Source: Thermus sediminis
GTDB taxonomy: Bacteria > Deinococcota > Deinococci > Deinococcales > Thermaceae
Length of the DNA: 64,000 bases
Direction: 5' to 3'
Assembly: GCF_003426945.1 (NCBI RefSeq)
Contig: NZ_QURO01000004.1
Location: forward strand, 1,426,001 to 1,490,000
The notes under the pieces are model-generated. The model worked only from the letters and a program-made list of their open reading frames with translations, ran no database searches and was not told the DNA's origin. Both the position numbers and the translations under genes were made by a program. Of this stretch, positions 3,750-48,328 are shown piece after piece. Numbering within the stretch: the stretch's first letter is position 1; each line of letters begins with the position of its first letter.

Positions 3750-4491
3750 GGAGAAGCCCAAGCCGCCGGGCCCTCTTCACCGCCAGGCGGAAGAGGAAAA
3801 GCCCCAGGAGGAAGTAGGCCAGGCTGTTGAGGAGGGCGAGGAGGAGGCCCAAGGGCTCCAAGGGGGTTCCCGCCGCCAGCATCCCCCGGGCCAGCGAGGC
3901 CCCCGGGGCCAGGGGGAGGAGGAGGAAGGGACCCTCGCCCGGGGCCTGGAGGAGGAAGAGGAGGAGGAACTGGGAGAGCCCCAGGAGCTGGCCTACCCGC
4001 TTGTAGAGGAGGGCCAGGGAGGCCATGGCGAAGCCCAGGCCGTAGGCCCCCAGGAGGACCACCAGGAAGGGGAGGACCACGGCGGGGGTGAAGGCTAGCT
4101 GGGCCCCGGTGAGGGCCATCAGGGCGAGGGCCACCAGGAAGACCAGAAGCCCCTGGCTCAAAAGCCCCGCCAGGTTCCGCACTAGGAAGAGGGGGATGGG
4201 GCCGTAGGGGGTGAGGAAGACCTGCTCCAGGGTGCCCGTCTGCGCCTCCTCCATGAGGCCGAAGGAGAGGCCATTGTAGGCTGAGAGGGTGAAGGTCCAG
4301 AGGAGGTAGCCCACGAGGACGGCCTCGAGCCTCCCCCCGAACTCCGCCCCAGGCCCCGCCAGGAAGCGGGCCCCCAGGAAGAGGAGGTAGAAGAGGAGGC
4401 TCAGGGTGACCACGGCCCCCAGGAGCTCCAGGGGGTAGCGGCGGAGGAAGAGGAGGCTTCGCCAGAGCTCGGCCAGGAAGAGGTCAAGCAT
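3739..4491 (-). CDS. ABC-2 type exporter permease
   Basis: Membrane half of an ABC exporter; 250 residues with about six hydrophobic segments and the ABC-2 layout (cytoplasmic N-terminus, first helix pair, then a loop carrying EEAQTGTLEQVFLTP before the remaining helices, a typical coupling region). It overlaps the ATPase gene upstream by 8 bp and the MFS gene downstream by 11 bp, so the three are translationally linked. The exported substrate cannot be told from sequence; such two-gene exporters often move lipids, antibiotics or polysaccharide parts. Confidence 0.85.
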   Translation of the reverse strand: MLDLFLAELWRSLLFLRRYPLELLGAVVTLSLLFYLLFLGARFLAGPGAEFGGRLEAVLVGYLLWTFTLSAYNGLSFGLMEEAQTGTLEQVFLTPYGPIPLFLVRNLAGLLSQGLLVFLVALALMALTGAQLAFTPAVVLPFLVVLLGAYGLGFAMASLALLYKRVGQLLGLSQFLLLFLLQAPGEGPFLLLPLAPGASLARGMLAAGTPLEPLGLLLALLNSLAYFLLGLFLFRLAVKRARRLGLLHGH

Positions 4492-5386
4492 GGCCCACCA
4501 CCTTCAGGAACACCTCCAAGAGGTCCGCCTCCGCCCTGGCCACCCGCTTGAGGGGAAGGGGCCTCAGGGCCTCTAGGACCCGCCACAGGGCCTCCCCGTC
4601 CCCCCGGAAGAGGAAGGGGCCTTCCCCCTCCACCCCCAGGGCCCGGAGGCGGCGGAGGACCTCGAGGGGCAGGGGGGCCTCCAGCTCCAGCACGTAGTGC
4701 TCCCCGGCGAAGCGGGCCAGGAGGGCCTCCTTCTCCCCCTCCAAGACGATCTCCCCCCGGTGGATGATGGCCACCCGGTGGGCCAGGGCCTGGGCCACGG
4801 AGAGCTGGTGGGTGGTGAGGAGGATGGCCTTGCCCCTTTGGGCCAGCTCCCGCACCTTGGCCTCCACGAGGAGGGCGGTCTCCACGTCCAGGCCTAGGGT
4901 GGGCTCGTCCAGGAGGAGGACCTCGGGGTCGTGGACCAGGGCCTGGAGGAGGGCCAGCTTCTGCTGCATCCCCCGGGAGAGGTGGCGCACCTCTACCCCT
5001 GCCTTTTCCCAAAGGCCGTACTCCTCCAGAAGCGCCTGGGCCCGCCGCTGGGCCGCTCCCAGGGAGAGGCCCCGGGCCACGCCGAAGTAGACCAGGTTCT
5101 CTAGGGGGGTGAGGCGCCAGTAGACGTTGCGGTTCCCCTCCAGCACCGCCCCCAGGTGGCGGAGGGCCCAGGGATTTTGGAAAGGGTCTTGGCCTAGAAG
5201 GCGGACCTCCCCCCCATCGGGGAAGAGGAGGCTTGCGAGCATCTTCACCGTGGTGGTCTTGCCCGCCCCGTTCTTGCCCAGGAAGGCCAGGACCTCCCCC
5301 GGGGCCAGGGCCAGGCCCACCCCCTTCACCGCCTCCAGGGCCCCGAAGCGCTTCCAGAGGCCCCGGGCCTCGAGGAGAGGTTCCAT
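4484..5386 (-). CDS. ABC exporter ATP-binding protein
   Basis: Cytoplasmic ATPase of the exporter whose permease follows with an 8-bp overlap. In its 300 residues: Walker A GKNGAGKTT near residue 37, Q-loop region, signature LSRGMQQK, Walker B VLLLDEPTLGLD and a switch histidine in LLTTHQ. The C-terminal 80 residues carry the extension common in ABC-2 drug/lipid exporter ATPases. It starts 4 bp after the stop of the MazG-like gene, in the same operon. Substrate unknown. Confidence 0.92.
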   Translation of the reverse strand: MEPLLEARGLWKRFGALEAVKGVGLALAPGEVLAFLGKNGAGKTTTVKMLASLLFPDGGEVRLLGQDPFQNPWALRHLGAVLEGNRNVYWRLTPLENLVYFGVARGLSLGAAQRRAQALLEEYGLWEKAGVEVRHLSRGMQQKLALLQALVHDPEVLLLDEPTLGLDVETALLVEAKVRELAQRGKAILLTTHQLSVAQALAHRVAIIHRGEIVLEGEKEALLARFAGEHYVLELEAPLPLEVLRRLRALGVEGEGPFLFRGDGEALWRVLEALRPLPLKRVARAEADLLEVFLKVVGHA

Positions 5387-43626: not shown

Positions 43627-45882
43627 CTAACGGAGGGCCAGGAGGAAGGTGGGGAGGGTGTCTCTTTCCATGAGGGCCACCAGGGTCCGGCCCGAGAAGG
43701 GGGCCAGCACCAGGGCCTTCCTTCCCAGCAGAAGGGCGGCGGGTCCCTTTTCCCCCAGGAGGGCCTCCAGGGTGGCCAGGGCGCGCTTGAGCTCCAAAAG
43801 GGCCTCCCTGGGCAGGGGGGGGTTCTCCTCCAGGAAGCCCAGGGCCTCCACCCCAGGAAGCCGCAGGCGCTCCAGGTCGGGGGAAGGCTTCCCCTCCTCA
43901 AAAACCCCCAGGAGGGCCTCGAGGTCCGCCCCCCGGATCTCCTGTAGGAGGGCCTTGGCGGCCTCGGCCTCCCTCTCCAGCTCCCCGAGGAGCTTCTCGG
44001 CCTGGGCCAGGGTCTTCTCCGTCCCCAAAAGCCCCTGGGGCCCCAGGCGGGGGAGCCTCTCCTGGGCCCTTTTCAGGACCCCCAGGAGGGGCTTCAGGCG
44101 GCGGTGGGTTTCGCTTTGGAACCGGCTCAGGCGGCCGTAGGCCTGGAAGAAGGCCACGAGGCGGGTGAGGACCTCCTCCCGCTTGGCCTCTAGACGCTGC
44201 TTCAGGGCCTGCAGCGCCCGGGCGATGGGGATGGGGTCCGGAAGGGGCTTGGCCTTCTCCTCCTCTATGGCCCGCAAGACCCCCTCGCCCCCGAAGCCCC
44301 GGAAGCGCTCCGCCAGGCTCTGGAGCCGGGAAAGCTCCTCCAGGGCCTCCTTCTGGGCCTGGGCCTTGGCCTCGGCCACCTCCCGGCGCAGGCGGGTGAG
44401 GTCGGGAAGCCGCCCCTCTTCCAAGGCCTCCTCCGCCTCCCTCACCTCCGCCTCGAGGCCCAAGGCCATAAGGCCCAGGGCCGAGGCCTCGGACTTGAGG
44501 GCCTCCAGCTCCCTTTCCGCTTCCAGAAGCTTGGCCTTTAGGGCCTCCTTTTCCCCTTGGGCCTGAAGGAGGGCGGCGTAGCGGGCCTGGACCCTGGGGA
44601 GCCCCTGGGGGAGGTCCCCTGGGGCCAGGGCCTGGAGCTCCTCCAGGAGGGGGCGGAAGGCCTCCCCCCTTTGGGCCAGCTCCCGGGCCAGGGCTTCTTT
44701 TTCCTCCAGAAGCCGCTTCTCCTCTCCCTTTTTCCTCCTGGCCTCCTCCTCCAGGCGGGCGAGCTCCACCTCCAAGGGCTTCAGGTCGGGGAGGCCCCCC
44801 TCCTCCAGGGTCTCCTCGGCCAGGCGCAGGGCGCCCTCCAAGGAGGCCTTGGCCTCCTCGGGCAGGGGGAGGGTCCTCAGGGCCTCTCCTAGCTGGATGA
44901 GGCGGGCCCGCCTTTCCGCCCGCAGGTTCTTCTCCGCCTCCTTCAGGGCGGCCTCCAGGAGGGAAAGCTTCTCCCCGGCGGGCTTCCCCGCCCCCAGGAG
45001 GGCCTGGACCTCGGCGAGGAGGGGGCTCACCGCAGGCCCCTCCAGGAGGGGGGCATAGCGGGCCAGGAGCTCCTCCAGCCTGCGCCTCTCCTCCTCCGCC
45101 TCCAGGGCCTCTAGGCGCCTCGCCGCCTCCTCGGGGAGGGCCTCGAGGTCGATGACGAGCTCCCCTTCCAGATCCTCCGCCTCCTCCACGGTGAGGAAGA
45201 CGTCCGTGGCCTTATTGGGGGGCTCCTCTTGGGTCTCAAAGGCGATCTCCGGCAGGGTGGGGGAGCGGGCCACGCTGGACTCCAGGAGCTTTCGCAGCTC
45301 CAGGGCCAGGCCCCGGGCCCGCTCCACCTCGGCCTGGGCCAGGACCCCCTCCTCCTGGGCCCTTTGGACGGTGGCCAGGAGGCTTTCCAGGCGGCGCACC
45401 TTGGCCCCCCCCAGGTGGCGCACCCTCTCCAGGCTCTCCTCCAGGTAGGCCAGGTCCTGGGCCTGGCGCAGGAGGGCTTCCTCCAGCCTCTCCTCCAGGG
45501 CCTCCAGCAGGGCCTCCGCCTCCCGCTTCAGCCCAGGCTCGTACGCCCGGCGGAGGCGGTTCACCAGGGCGCGGAGGCGGGCTACCTCGGGCCAGTCCAG
45601 GTAGAGGCCGAAGCGCTTCAGGCCTGCCTCCAAGGCCTCCAGGTTCGGGGGTTCCGAAAGCCTCCTGAGGGCCTCCTCCACCACCCGCCGGGCCTTTTCG
45701 GGGGAAAGCCTCCCCTGGAGTTCGCGGAAGGCGAGGCCCTTCAGGAGGGCCTCCCCGTCCTTGGGGGAGAGTTCCTGGGGGCGCTTTCCCAGGCGCTTTA
45801 GGCCCTCTTCCAGGACCGCCTCCGCCCTGGCCCCCAGGTGGGGGCGGAGGGTTTCCAGGATCACCCCGTAGACCTCCGGCAT
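43627..45882 (-). CDS. Large coiled-coil protein of unknown function
   Basis: 751 residues, rich in Leu, Glu, Ala and Arg, with long heptad stretches from about residue 130 to 650 (for instance EARRKKGEEKRLLEEKEALA) interrupted by Gly/Pro-containing breaks (about 300 and 480). The N-terminal about 120 residues are helical but not coiled coil (LSPKDGEALLKGLAF); the last about 40 residues (AALLLGRKALVLAPF ... TLPTFLLAL) look like a small globular domain, distantly like a Roadblock/LC7 end, which is a guess. No signal peptide, no membrane segment. Between mscS (10 bp) and rel/spoT (18 bp). I do not recognise the family. Confidence 0.75.
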   Translation of the reverse strand: MPEVYGVILETLRPHLGARAEAVLEEGLKRLGKRPQELSPKDGEALLKGLAFRELQGRLSPEKARRVVEEALRRLSEPPNLEALEAGLKRFGLYLDWPEVARLRALVNRLRRAYEPGLKREAEALLEALEERLEEALLRQAQDLAYLEESLERVRHLGGAKVRRLESLLATVQRAQEEGVLAQAEVERARGLALELRKLLESSVARSPTLPEIAFETQEEPPNKATDVFLTVEEAEDLEGELVIDLEALPEEAARRLEALEAEEERRRLEELLARYAPLLEGPAVSPLLAEVQALLGAGKPAGEKLSLLEAALKEAEKNLRAERRARLIQLGEALRTLPLPEEAKASLEGALRLAEETLEEGGLPDLKPLEVELARLEEEARRKKGEEKRLLEEKEALARELAQRGEAFRPLLEELQALAPGDLPQGLPRVQARYAALLQAQGEKEALKAKLLEAERELEALKSEASALGLMALGLEAEVREAEEALEEGRLPDLTRLRREVAEAKAQAQKEALEELSRLQSLAERFRGFGGEGVLRAIEEEKAKPLPDPIPIARALQALKQRLEAKREEVLTRLVAFFQAYGRLSRFQSETHRRLKPLLGVLKRAQERLPRLGPQGLLGTEKTLAQAEKLLGELEREAEAAKALLQEIRGADLEALLGVFEEGKPSPDLERLRLPGVEALGFLEENPPLPREALLELKRALATLEALLGEKGPAALLLGRKALVLAPFSGRTLVALMERDTLPTFLLALR

Positions 45883-45892
45883 CCCCTCTAGC

Positions 45893-46951
45893 CTACCCCT
45901 TTTCCAGCCTCAGGGCCTCGCCGAAGTAGAGCTTCTGGTGCGGGTAGGGGATCTCGATCCCCTCCCGGTCCAGGCGGTTTTTGATGCGCCTGCGGAACTC
46001 CCGGGCCACGGCCCACTGCTCCGCGGGCTTGGTGTTGAAGAGGACCCGGATCACCACCCCGGAGTCCGCCAGGTGCTGCACCCCCAAGACCTCCGGGGAG
46101 GCGTTGAAGCGGGCCTGCCACTCGGGGTCCTCGTGGAAGCGGGCCGCCTCGTCGCGGAAGACCTCCAGCACCCGGTCCAGGTCCTCCTTGTAGGCCACGC
46201 TCACGTCCACCACCGCCCGGCTCCACTCCTGGGTGAGGACGGTCACCTGGCGCACCTCGGAGTTGGGGAGGAAGTGGACCCGGCCCTCGAGGTCCCGGAG
46301 CACGGTGATCCTCAGGTTGAACCGTTCCACCACCCCCCCCACGCTCCCGATCTGCACGATGTCCCCCACGCCGTACTGGTCCTCCAGGAGGATGAAGAAG
46401 CCGTGGATGAAGTCCCGGATGAGGTTCTGCGCGGCGAAGCTGATCGCCAGCCCCACCACCCCCGCCCCCGCCAGGAGGGCGGTGACGTTGAGGCCCAGGT
46501 TGGAGAGGAGGAAGAGCCCCCCCACGATCAGGACCGCCACCCGGAGCACCGACTCGGAGACCGCCCTCAGGGTGCGCCCGCGCACCGCCTCCCGGGTGCG
46601 CTCCCCCTCGGGGGGCCTGGGGAGGCCCTGGAGGAGGAGGGGGGCCAGGCGGTAGCCCAAAAAGGTGAGGGCCAAGACGGCCAGGGCGGAAAGCCCCTGC
46701 CCTCCCAGCCACCGGATGAGCCCCTCCCCCCAGGAGCGCCAGGGCTCGTAGGGGAGGCCCAGGGCCTGGACCAGGTAGCTGAAGTAGAGGAGGGCCACCA
46801 CCCCCCACCAGAGAAGGCCCAGGAGCTGGAAGAGACGGCCATCCCCCTCCGCGGGGGTGAGGCGGCCCAGGGCGTTCAGGGCCCGGGCCCCGTAGCGGCC
46901 CAGGAGCCAGGCCACCAGGAGGGCCAGGGCCAGTTCAGGCCAGGGTGCCAT
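45893..46951 (-). CDS. MscS-type mechanosensitive ion channel
   Basis: 352 residues: four N-terminal hydrophobic segments, the pore helix ALLAGAGVVGLAISFAAQN with the glycine/alanine pattern of MscS TM3, then the beta domain (EDQYGVGDIVQIGSVGGVVE) and an alpha/beta C-terminal domain ending near PYPHQKLYF. Releases solutes when membrane tension rises. ATG 46951 has TATATT 6 nt upstream; longer readings cross the divergent hemQ promoter. First gene of the mscS-coiled coil-rel/spoT operon. Confidence 0.92.
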   Translation of the reverse strand: MAPWPELALALLVAWLLGRYGARALNALGRLTPAEGDGRLFQLLGLLWWGVVALLYFSYLVQALGLPYEPWRSWGEGLIRWLGGQGLSALAVLALTFLGYRLAPLLLQGLPRPPEGERTREAVRGRTLRAVSESVLRVAVLIVGGLFLLSNLGLNVTALLAGAGVVGLAISFAAQNLIRDFIHGFFILLEDQYGVGDIVQIGSVGGVVERFNLRITVLRDLEGRVHFLPNSEVRQVTVLTQEWSRAVVDVSVAYKEDLDRVLEVFRDEAARFHEDPEWQARFNASPEVLGVQHLADSGVVIRVLFNTKPAEQWAVAREFRRRIKNRLDREGIEIPYPHQKLYFGEALRLEKG

Positions 46952-46957
46952 GGGGCC

Positions 46958-46963
46958 AATATA
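46958..46963 (-). promoter_or_regulatory. -10 element of leaderless mscS
   Basis: TATATT on the minus strand, 6 nt (GGCCCC) before ATG 46951. Confidence 0.6.
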
Positions 46964-46980
46964 CATAAGCCCCGGGGCCG

Positions 46981-46986
46981 TATAGT
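46981..46986 (+). promoter_or_regulatory. -10 element of leaderless hemQ
   Basis: TATAGT, 7 nt (GGGGGAC) before ATG 46994. The divergent mscS start is 42 bp away, so each -35 zone falls on the other's -10. Confidence 0.6.
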
Positions 46987-46993
46987 GGGGGAC

Positions 46994-47746
46994 ATGGAAG
47001 GCCGCGTGCCCGAACCCACCCACACCCTCGAGGGCTGGCACATCCTCCACGACTTCCGCCTCCTGGACTTCCCCCGCTGGCGGAAGGCCCCGCCTTTGGA
47101 GCGGCAGGCCGCCTGGGAAGAGCTTTTGGACCTCCTCGCCGCCTGGCGGCGGGTGGAGGAGGCGGGGCGGGGGTCTTTTGGGGTCTACCAGGTGGTCACC
47201 CACAAGGCGGACCTCCTCTTCCTAAACCTGAGGGAAGGGTTGGACGAGCTCTTGGAAGTGGAGGCCGCCCTCAACAGGAGCCTCCTCGCCGAGTACCTCC
47301 TCCCCGCCTACGGCTTCTACTCCGTGGTGGAGCTGGGAAGCCAGGAAAGGCCCTTGGACCCCGAGGCCCCCTACGTGAAGCCCCGCCTCACCCCCAAGGT
47401 GCCCAAGGGGGGCTACGTCTGCTTCTACCCCATGAACAAGAGGCGGGAAGGGGGGGACAACTGGTACCTGCTCCCCGCCAAGGAGCGGGCCCACCTCATG
47501 CGGGCCCACGGGGAGACGGGGAGGAAGTACCAGGGCAGGGTCCTCCAGGTCATCAGCGGGGCCCAGGGCCTGGACGACTGGGAGTGGGGGGTGGACCTCT
47601 TCAGCGAGGACCCCGTCCAGTTCAAGAAGATCGTCTACGAGATGCGCTTTGACGAGGTCTCCGCCCGCTACGGGGAGTTTGGCCCCTTCTACGTGGGCAG
47701 ATACCTGGACGAGGAGGCCCTGGCCAGGCTTTTGAGCGTAGGATAG
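46994..47746 (+). CDS. hemQ: Coproheme decarboxylase HemQ (chlorite dismutase family)
   Basis: Last step of the coproporphyrin-dependent heme pathway: decarboxylates coproheme to heme b using peroxide. 250 residues, very close to the T. thermophilus protein of known structure. Visible: THTLEGWHILHDFRLLDF at the N-terminus, VELGSQERPL, YVCFYPMNKRREG with the coproheme-binding loop, RKYQGRVLQVISGAQGLDDWEWGVDLF with the proximal histidine region nearby (AHGETGRKY), and KKIVYEMRFDEVSARYGEFG. A second Cld-like gene follows by 4 bp. Confidence 0.95.
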   Translation: MEGRVPEPTHTLEGWHILHDFRLLDFPRWRKAPPLERQAAWEELLDLLAAWRRVEEAGRGSFGVYQVVTHKADLLFLNLREGLDELLEVEAALNRSLLAEYLLPAYGFYSVVELGSQERPLDPEAPYVKPRLTPKVPKGGYVCFYPMNKRREGGDNWYLLPAKERAHLMRAHGETGRKYQGRVLQVISGAQGLDDWEWGVDLFSEDPVQFKKIVYEMRFDEVSARYGEFGPFYVGRYLDEEALARLLSVG

Positions 47747-47750
47747 GGGT

Positions 47751-48245
47751 ATGGAGCGCTACTGGGCCCTGGGGCTTTTCCGGCTTCTCCCCGAGTTCCG
47801 CCGCCTGGAGGCCGAGGGGCAGGAGCACCTCAAGGAGGAGTTCGCCCTCCTCCTCCACCGCTTCCGCGAGCGGGGGGAGTTCCTCAGGGCCTATAGCCTA
47901 GTAGGCTTTTCGGCCGAGGCCGACCTCCTCCTCTTCCAGGGGGCGGAGGACCCCAGGGCCTTCCAGGTCCTGAGGCGGGAGGCCCACCGCACCCGGCTCA
48001 TGGGCTACCTGGTCCCCGTGGCCCTCTTCCTGGACCGGGGGATGGGGGAGCCGGAGGCGGGGGCCTTGGCCCTCTTTCCCTTTGGCCTCGAGGCCCCGCC
48101 TCCCCAGGGGGTGAGGCTCCTCAAGGGGCGGCAGGTGGTCCTCCTGGAAGGGCCTCTGGAGGCCCTCTTCCCCCTGGCCCTGGCCGAGGGGGGGTATTTG
48201 GCCCTTCCCCGGGGCTTCCGGGAGGCCCTGGACGACCTGGGCTAA
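47751..48245 (+). CDS. Short chlorite-dismutase-like paralogue of HemQ
   Basis: 164 residues. The first 95 follow the N-terminal Cld pattern (YWALGLFRLLPEFRRLE, then YSLVGFSAEADLLLFQGAEDPRAFQVLRRE), matching the same part of HemQ (YQVVTHKADLLFL). The C-terminal part is short and lacks the heme-binding Tyr/His motifs (no PMNKRR, no AHGETGRKY), so heme binding is doubtful. It probably arose by duplication and shortening, or is a non-enzymatic partner. Cotranscribed with hemQ. Confidence 0.65.
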   Translation: MERYWALGLFRLLPEFRRLEAEGQEHLKEEFALLLHRFRERGEFLRAYSLVGFSAEADLLLFQGAEDPRAFQVLRREAHRTRLMGYLVPVALFLDRGMGEPEAGALALFPFGLEAPPPQGVRLLKGRQVVLLEGPLEALFPLALAEGGYLALPRGFREALDDLG

Positions 48246-48250
48246 TACCA

Positions 48251-48278
48251 CCCCATGCTGGCTTGCGCCAGCATGGGG
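48251..48278. terminator. 28-nt hairpin in convergent junction (copy 3)
   Basis: Arms CCCCATGCTGGC and GCCAGCATGGGG pair perfectly around TTGC, between the stops of the Cld-like gene and ruvA. Followed by GCCCC, as in the copy at 63356. Confidence 0.75.
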
Positions 48279-48328
48279 GCCCCAGGGCTTTGGCCTGGGC
48301 CCCGTGGCGAAACCCGGGCGCAAGGCCC

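Follow-up and report, generated by a model that had tools for sequence, protein, structure and literature searches.

In most Thermus genomes, hemQ is followed almost without gap by a small gene of the chlorite dismutase (Cld) family, the product of which, judged from sequence and predicted structure, cannot function as a HemQ-type heme enzyme. The evidence supports, in our view strongly, that this gene is the reduced remnant of an ancestral HemQ that was displaced and now sits beside a Bacillota-type hemQ. As an explanation of the whole, a reduced, displaced native HemQ that became the operon partner of the new HemQ accounts best for the observations, and we hold it with modest confidence. Here, "native" denotes the type of HemQ that is found in the sister genera and in other Deinococcota. 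The sister genera of the family are presumably Meiothermus-like; Meiothermus belongs to the family Thermaceae.

The window, a stretch of 64,000 nucleotides from Thermus sediminis (contig NZ_QURO01000004.1), contains the features listed in Table 1. By NCBIfam, the hemQ product is classified as a full coproheme decarboxylase, matching the equivalog "hydrogen peroxide-dependent heme synthase" with 319.8 bits (cut-off 253). Its nearest solved relative is the protein from T. thermophilus HB8 (1vdh). Tyr145 and His172, which we take to be the catalytic tyrosine and the proximal histidine, are kept in all 27 Thermus HemQs, and assignment of the catalytic role to the tyrosine of the VYPF motif is consistent with the Y135A mutant entry 7q4g for the family aligned here. 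A leaderless hemQ start is possible, the TATAGT in front of it being a weak candidate because a sigma-70 scan recovered no site. Downstream of the small gene, the region 48240-48300 folds with a z of -3.4 and the hairpin situated there may mark the end of the transcript; it is not among the sites returned by a terminator scan. The pair is flanked by a divergent mscS-like frame upstream and a convergent ruvA-like frame downstream (both named by eye), such that hemQ and the small gene form a closed unit. As listed, the mscS-like frame (45893-47203) extends antisense into hemQ by way of a GTG start, and the true start probably lies near 46966 or 46951. Next to mscS, a protein of 751 residues is encoded (43627-45882) that appears coiled-coil-like by eye and also adjoins mscS in the three genomes G017, G026 and G071, which we return to below.

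Table 1. Features of the hemQ region in the T. sediminis window (aa, residues of the small protein).
Feature	Positions	Strand	Remarks and basis
TATAGT, possible -10 element 7 bp before the hemQ ATG	46981..46986	+	weak; read by eye
hemQ, Bacillota-type coproheme decarboxylase	46994..47746	+	250 aa; Tyr145 and His172 present
AGGA, possible ribosome-binding site of the small gene	47740..47743	+	within the last hemQ codons; presumed, read by eye
Small Cld-family gene without heme site	47751..48245	+	164 aa; open reading frame, Pfam, profile, model, tree
N-terminal ferredoxin-like domain, aa 1-97	47751..48041	+	profile alignment, model
Most conserved stretch, aa 11-28	47781..47834	+	alignment of 24 small proteins
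Reduced second ferredoxin-like domain, aa 105-154 (predicted)	48063..48212	+	two models, profile alignment
Aa 109-121: Phe109, aligned with the catalytic Tyr, and after it the site of the missing proximal-His helix	48075..48113	+	profile alignment, column counts
Perfect 12-bp hairpin without T run, between the small gene and convergent ruvA	48251..48278	+	possible end of transcript

A first-pass annotation of the window had described the second gene as lying 4 bp from hemQ, as having kept only the N-terminal half of Cld and as lacking the heme-binding motifs. The distance holds, as the reading frame begins 4 bp beyond the hemQ stop codon, and the absence of proximal histidine and catalytic tyrosine is borne out as well. 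The description as an N-terminal half needs correction, since residues 105-154 are predicted to fold into a second ferredoxin-like domain of reduced size, and the modelled chain can be superposed on Cld/HemQ over its full length. In Pfam, the protein from the window scores 24.9 bits with Chlor_dismutase (PF06778; cut-off 25) over model positions 2-69 of 189, and the 22 of 25 small proteins from Thermus that pass the cut-off, the one from the window not among them, are matched at positions 2-71 of 189 only. A phmmer search at E values up to 10 did not find a solved structure of the small protein, and the best matches of a small-protein profile among solved structures are Cld/ChdC entries (E 0.0065 and weaker).

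An AlphaFold2 model based on 37 rows (pLDDT 93.2, pTM 0.88) features two fused ferredoxin-like domains in a barrel. The N-terminal one is complete (residues 3-97), while the other consists of strands 105-109, 122-126 and 130-134, a helix at 136-146 and a strand at 149-154 and is thus, in the model, a ferredoxin-like domain minus its first helix. In Cld/HemQ, this helix carries the heme-binding histidine, as described in a passage of PMC4835899. When the model is compared with solved structures by VIA-align, 28 Cld/HemQ entries come out on top (Z 14.3-17.7, rmsd 2.7-3.3, 156-161 of the 164 residues; HemQ 1vdh: Z 15.9, rmsd 3.2, 161 residues), followed by DyP proteins with Z values of at most 10.4. 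The prediction of a Cld fold is repeated in a second model derived from 24 small proteins alone (pLDDT 82.5), which contains the same second domain and matches the same 28 entries at Z 11.9-14.8. A profile alignment of the second domain that makes long gaps cheap places a gap at the proximal-His helix and Phe109 opposite the catalytic tyrosine. It reaches a z of 3.4 to native HemQ (0 of 200 shuffles) and of 3.3 to Thermus HemQ, and so supports a Cld-like second domain while not telling apart which of the two is its parent; the N-terminal domain, serving as control, scores 50.0 versus a shuffled mean of 2.6. Plain hhalign aligned only the last 12 residues of the second domain. Homology of this domain to Cld/HemQ is likely, chiefly on the strength of the models.

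Little is left of the active site. The place of the catalytic tyrosine (VYPF/FYPM motif) is taken by phenylalanine in 22 and by leucine in two of 24 small proteins. The proximal histidine, shared by HemQ and active chlorite dismutase and present in all 16 aligned native HemQs and all 27 Thermus HemQs, has no counterpart: between residues 98 and 164, no column contains histidine in more than three of the 24 rows, and the helix is missing in the model. A conserved distal arginine is a further named feature of active chlorite dismutase in the portion of PMC7611857 that treats it.

With regard to descent, the notion of a half-size paralogue of the adjacent HemQ is misleading, as the small protein is nearer to HemQ of other Deinococcota than to its neighbor. 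To the latter it aligns by BLASTP with an E value of 0.35, whereas it shares 39-47% identity over about 90 residues with native HemQ from its own family and from a further one (f4), and 33-38% with that of another (f2). For the single Cld protein of the sister genera, the range is 39-46%. For the N-terminal domain, hhalign against native HemQ aligns 93 columns at 43% identity, with a probability of 99.4%. We calculated two trees, for both of which the program warned of long branches that meet. The first, built on the N-terminal domain (98 columns; 61 rows comprising 24 small proteins, 16 native and 13 Thermus-type HemQs and eight outside sequences), joins small proteins with native HemQ at a support of 89/79 (not starred), and support for Thermus HemQ joining Bacillota is 100/99 (starred); constraining small proteins and Thermus HemQ to group together is rejected (p-AU 9.9e-5). 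In the second, full-length tree (37 rows, small proteins left out), a single starred split (100/100) separates Thermus HemQ plus Bacillota from native HemQ plus Actinomycetota and Thermomicrobium, and placing Thermus-type and native HemQ on one side of a branch is likewise rejected (p-AU 2.4e-4). Bacillota are sampled by three rows only, which do not fix donor and direction within that group. Outside Thermus, genome G071 from a different genus (g5) of the same family also encodes the foreign type of HemQ beside mscS, without the small gene. The full-length tree places its HemQ as sister to those of Thermus (93/86, not starred), the N-domain tree in their midst; due to this difference, G071 gives no date for the origin of the small gene.

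In the sister genera, native hemQ directly adjoins cpfC and cgoX in all ten loci fetched from three genera (Cld matches exist in 21 genomes of these genera, ten of which are covered), and hemE is located on its other side in eight of them. The arrangement is not universal, since hemE, cpfC and cgoX were not found near native hemQ in seven loci fetched from two further families. Thermus has no hemQ between hemE and cpfC, which are immediate neighbors in all 26 readable loci (the remaining one, L137, is cut). It thus seems that Thermus lost hemQ from this cluster and carries the foreign type elsewhere, with a reduced protein of native type next to it; the location of the small gene differs from the place of hemQ in the sister genera. 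As an aside, Thermus HemE proteins (L111-L136) are only 45-49% identical to HemE from one of the sister-genus loci (L091), compared with 59-63% for CpfC, and hemE of the Thermus heme cluster may have a history of its own.

The small protein occurs in 25 of 27 Thermus genomes, in one copy each, while HemQ is present in all of them. Wherever it exists, the small gene is adjacent to hemQ, and the gap between hemQ stop and small gene start ranges from -4 to +4 bp (25/25 loci). At two loci, long open frames of 410 and 449 residues gave the impression of a hemQ-small gene fusion; this was dismissed, as the two genes share 4 bp at the hemQ stop there and are read in different frames. Upstream, mscS is found in 23 of 25 loci (no match in L017, only an antisense match inside hemQ in L020), whereas ruvA follows the small gene in just eight of 25, such that the two genes stay together even where the sequence downstream of them differs. 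In the phylum outside Thermus, all matches of the small protein stop at or before residue 145; apart from three rows from two fragmented genomes (G045, G047), they sit in frames of more than 250 residues. A separate tblastn search found a match reaching residue 162 (34%) in one relative (L098). Among 111 genomes searched with Pfam, 65 contain Cld genes; 35 of the 38 non-Thermus genomes among these have one match and three fragmented ones (G044, G045, G047) have two, and a short second Cld gene of the kind described here was not encountered in these 38. A plasmid search with the small protein gave no match, and a scan of genome contigs with short exact patterns returned three loci, all from Thermus. 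The fold is predicted to be that of Cld and the gene co-occurs with hemQ, so that neither of the two outcomes named as refuting in the first-pass annotation has occurred, and a functional link between small protein and HemQ is well supported.

Besides G071, two Thermus genomes (G026 and G017, with a completeness of 100% and 87%, respectively) have HemQ and lack the small gene, and HemQ is therefore not strictly dependent on it. The HemQs of G026 and G017 are alike in 246 of 249 residues and share RSYSFYSVVELG at residues 104-115 with the enzyme from strain HB8 (1vdh); R104, S105 and S107 do not occur in any of 23 other HemQs compared. From this resemblance, T. thermophilus HB8 probably lacks the small gene, too. 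As the HemQs of G026 and G017 nest among Thermus HemQs in both trees, loss is the simpler reading, and the small gene was probably lost in the T. thermophilus lineage. In both genomes, a convergent gene that appears YjbQ-like by eye ends at the hemQ stop (loci L109 and L110), so that the site is cleanly replaced. When the three genomes without the small gene were searched for a remnant of it, the best match outside hemQ was at 4460-4621 in L110 (about 30-36% identity over 39-60 residues; E 2e-5, reached by one query out of 24 in a 20-kb set) and is read in another frame than a hydrophobic ORF of 129 residues at 4237-4626. The best matches in L109, where the order of genes is identical, and in L108 have E values of 0.02 and 0.025 and are located elsewhere. 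The match in L110 probably arose by chance in G+C-rich DNA.

The HemQs of these two genomes have the most diverged N-terminal domain of the 25 out of 27 that were compared (G012 and G020 were left out), with a ratio of 1.65 versus 1.28 for the C-terminal domain and 1.16-1.28 for HemE, CpfC and CgoX. Twelve of the 14 residues private to them with respect to the 23 others fall between positions 39 and 107, including a change from PAYGF to RSYSF at 104-108. The neighboring MscS also stands out in G017 and G026 (ratio 1.54), and the divergence of the HemQ N-terminal domain after loss of the partner may thus reflect a regional effect.

The small gene is under purifying selection. It is open in all 25 genomes at pairwise identities of 54-100%, and the median dN/dS is 0.31 as compared to 0.21 for HemQ (NG86, 299 of 300 pairs, one identical pair dropped), the method being rough at high G+C content; among the pairs listed individually, values reach about 0.5. 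The dN/dS is equal in both domains. Of 30 positions in the N-terminal domain that are invariant in 16 native HemQs, ten are conserved in 20 or 21 of 21 small proteins, and P14, F16, R17, R18, S49, G52, D58 and G85 are among those retained. Ten others are kept in none, four of which correspond to deleted positions. All 24 aligned small proteins agree at residues 19-22 and 24-28 (LEAE and QEHLK). L19 and K28 also occur widely in native HemQs, while the rest of the block is variable or different there. Constraint on helix 1 (EAE.QEHL) was thus gained after the active site had been lost, as would be expected of a binding surface, and this suggests a new binding job.

Putting these observations together, we propose that a HemQ of Bacillota type entered an ancestor of Thermus, that native hemQ left the hemE-hemQ-cpfC-cgoX cluster, and that one native copy lost the proximal-His helix, exchanged its catalytic tyrosine for phenylalanine and stayed on, closely coupled to the new hemQ in an operon of two genes. 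The protein would then probably act by protein contact, its N-terminal domain binding HemQ either in a mixed oligomer or as a regulator; alternatively, this domain might dock CpfC, the supplier of coproheme, to HemQ. Whether it acts in one of these two ways we consider evenly balanced. A contact role is suggested because the N-terminal domain has been kept, and in pentameric Clds contacts are richest in this ferredoxin-like fold according to a section of PMC7611857. Among the individual readings, a HemQ-binding subunit or regulator ranks first. The adaptor is the boldest of them and, taken by itself, rather unlikely: here, the small protein would recognize the resident CpfC and hand coproheme, or CpfC with its coproheme, to a foreign HemQ that did not co-evolve with it.

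Next after the HemQ-binding subunit comes a porphyrin or heme carrier, which is also on the unlikely side. The reduced barrel might transiently hold coproheme or heme, perhaps via His26, and accept the product of HemQ or guard against free heme. His26 is indeed present in all 24 small proteins, the gene shares an operon with hemQ, and the position of the heme site varies among alpha+beta barrels, as summarized in part of PMC4835899. Against this speaks that the heme-binding helix of Cld/HemQ is missing in the model and that His26 sits on helix 1 of the N-terminal domain. To our knowledge, no solved Cld protein binds heme there. Departure from heme metabolism is an option we find distinctly unlikely: on the same barrel, a small enzyme or sensor of another kind could have evolved, similar to Dabb/ABM proteins. 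The new conserved block on helix 1 would fit, as would a scaffold that serves many functions (again from that part of PMC4835899), but the constant pairing with hemQ despite a changing downstream flank does not. The gene could, furthermore, simply be a functionless remnant in decay, kept by its position in the operon, a view suggested by its reduced size, the vanished active site and its absence from two Thermus genomes and G071. It is among the least likely options and in our eyes very improbable, given frames that are open in all 25 genomes at the identities stated, a dN/dS of about 0.31 in both domains and the newly invariant helix-1 block. Least credible of all is rapid divergence following a tandem duplication of the neighboring Thermus hemQ. 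Family membership and adjacency would be explained, but not the E value of 0.35 to the neighbor as opposed to 39-47% identity to native HemQ, and the required grouping with Thermus HemQ is refuted by the AU test under the model used.

The small protein can be compared with several known systems. With HemQ/ChdC of other Deinococcota and Actinomycetota it shares, by sequence and model, the N-terminal ferredoxin-like domain and the two-domain barrel, but it consists of 164 instead of about 260 residues, lacks the proximal-His helix, carries phenylalanine or leucine in place of the tyrosine and is encoded outside the hem cluster. HmoB from the IsdG family is an active heme monooxygenase and owes its activity to its other domain, whereas in the small protein it is the heme-binding domain itself that is degraded. 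In pseudoenzyme partnerships, a catalytically dead relative is encoded beside an active enzyme; unlike the usual partners of this kind, the small protein seems to be descended from the displaced native enzyme and not from a duplication. The shorter, dimeric clade 2 chlorite dismutases are likewise members of the family that became shorter, but as outlined in a part of PMC7611857 they lack the N-terminal fold and have kept the heme domain, while the small protein represents the reverse case with its heme helix lost. We therefore regard it as a pseudoenzyme partner of the Cld family that is unusual in the domain that is degraded and in its apparent descent from a displaced enzyme. A search of titles and abstracts, with supplements and most subscription journals outside its scope, did not reveal literature on the small gene; the locus tag TTHA1714 is mentioned once in PMC3084264. 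Strain HB8, the source of HemQ structure 1vdh, probably lacks the small gene, and this may explain why it went unnoticed.

The hand-over of coproheme within the pathway and the reason why HemQ is pentameric are named as open questions in a section of PMC7611857, and a conserved, catalytically dead Cld protein encoded together with HemQ offers a natural handle on both. If the proposed origin is true, the small gene would be a clear case of an enzyme that was displaced by gene transfer and found a second life beside its replacement. If, in addition, the adaptor reading proved true, conversion of the displaced enzyme into an adaptor for its successor would have facilitated the replacement.
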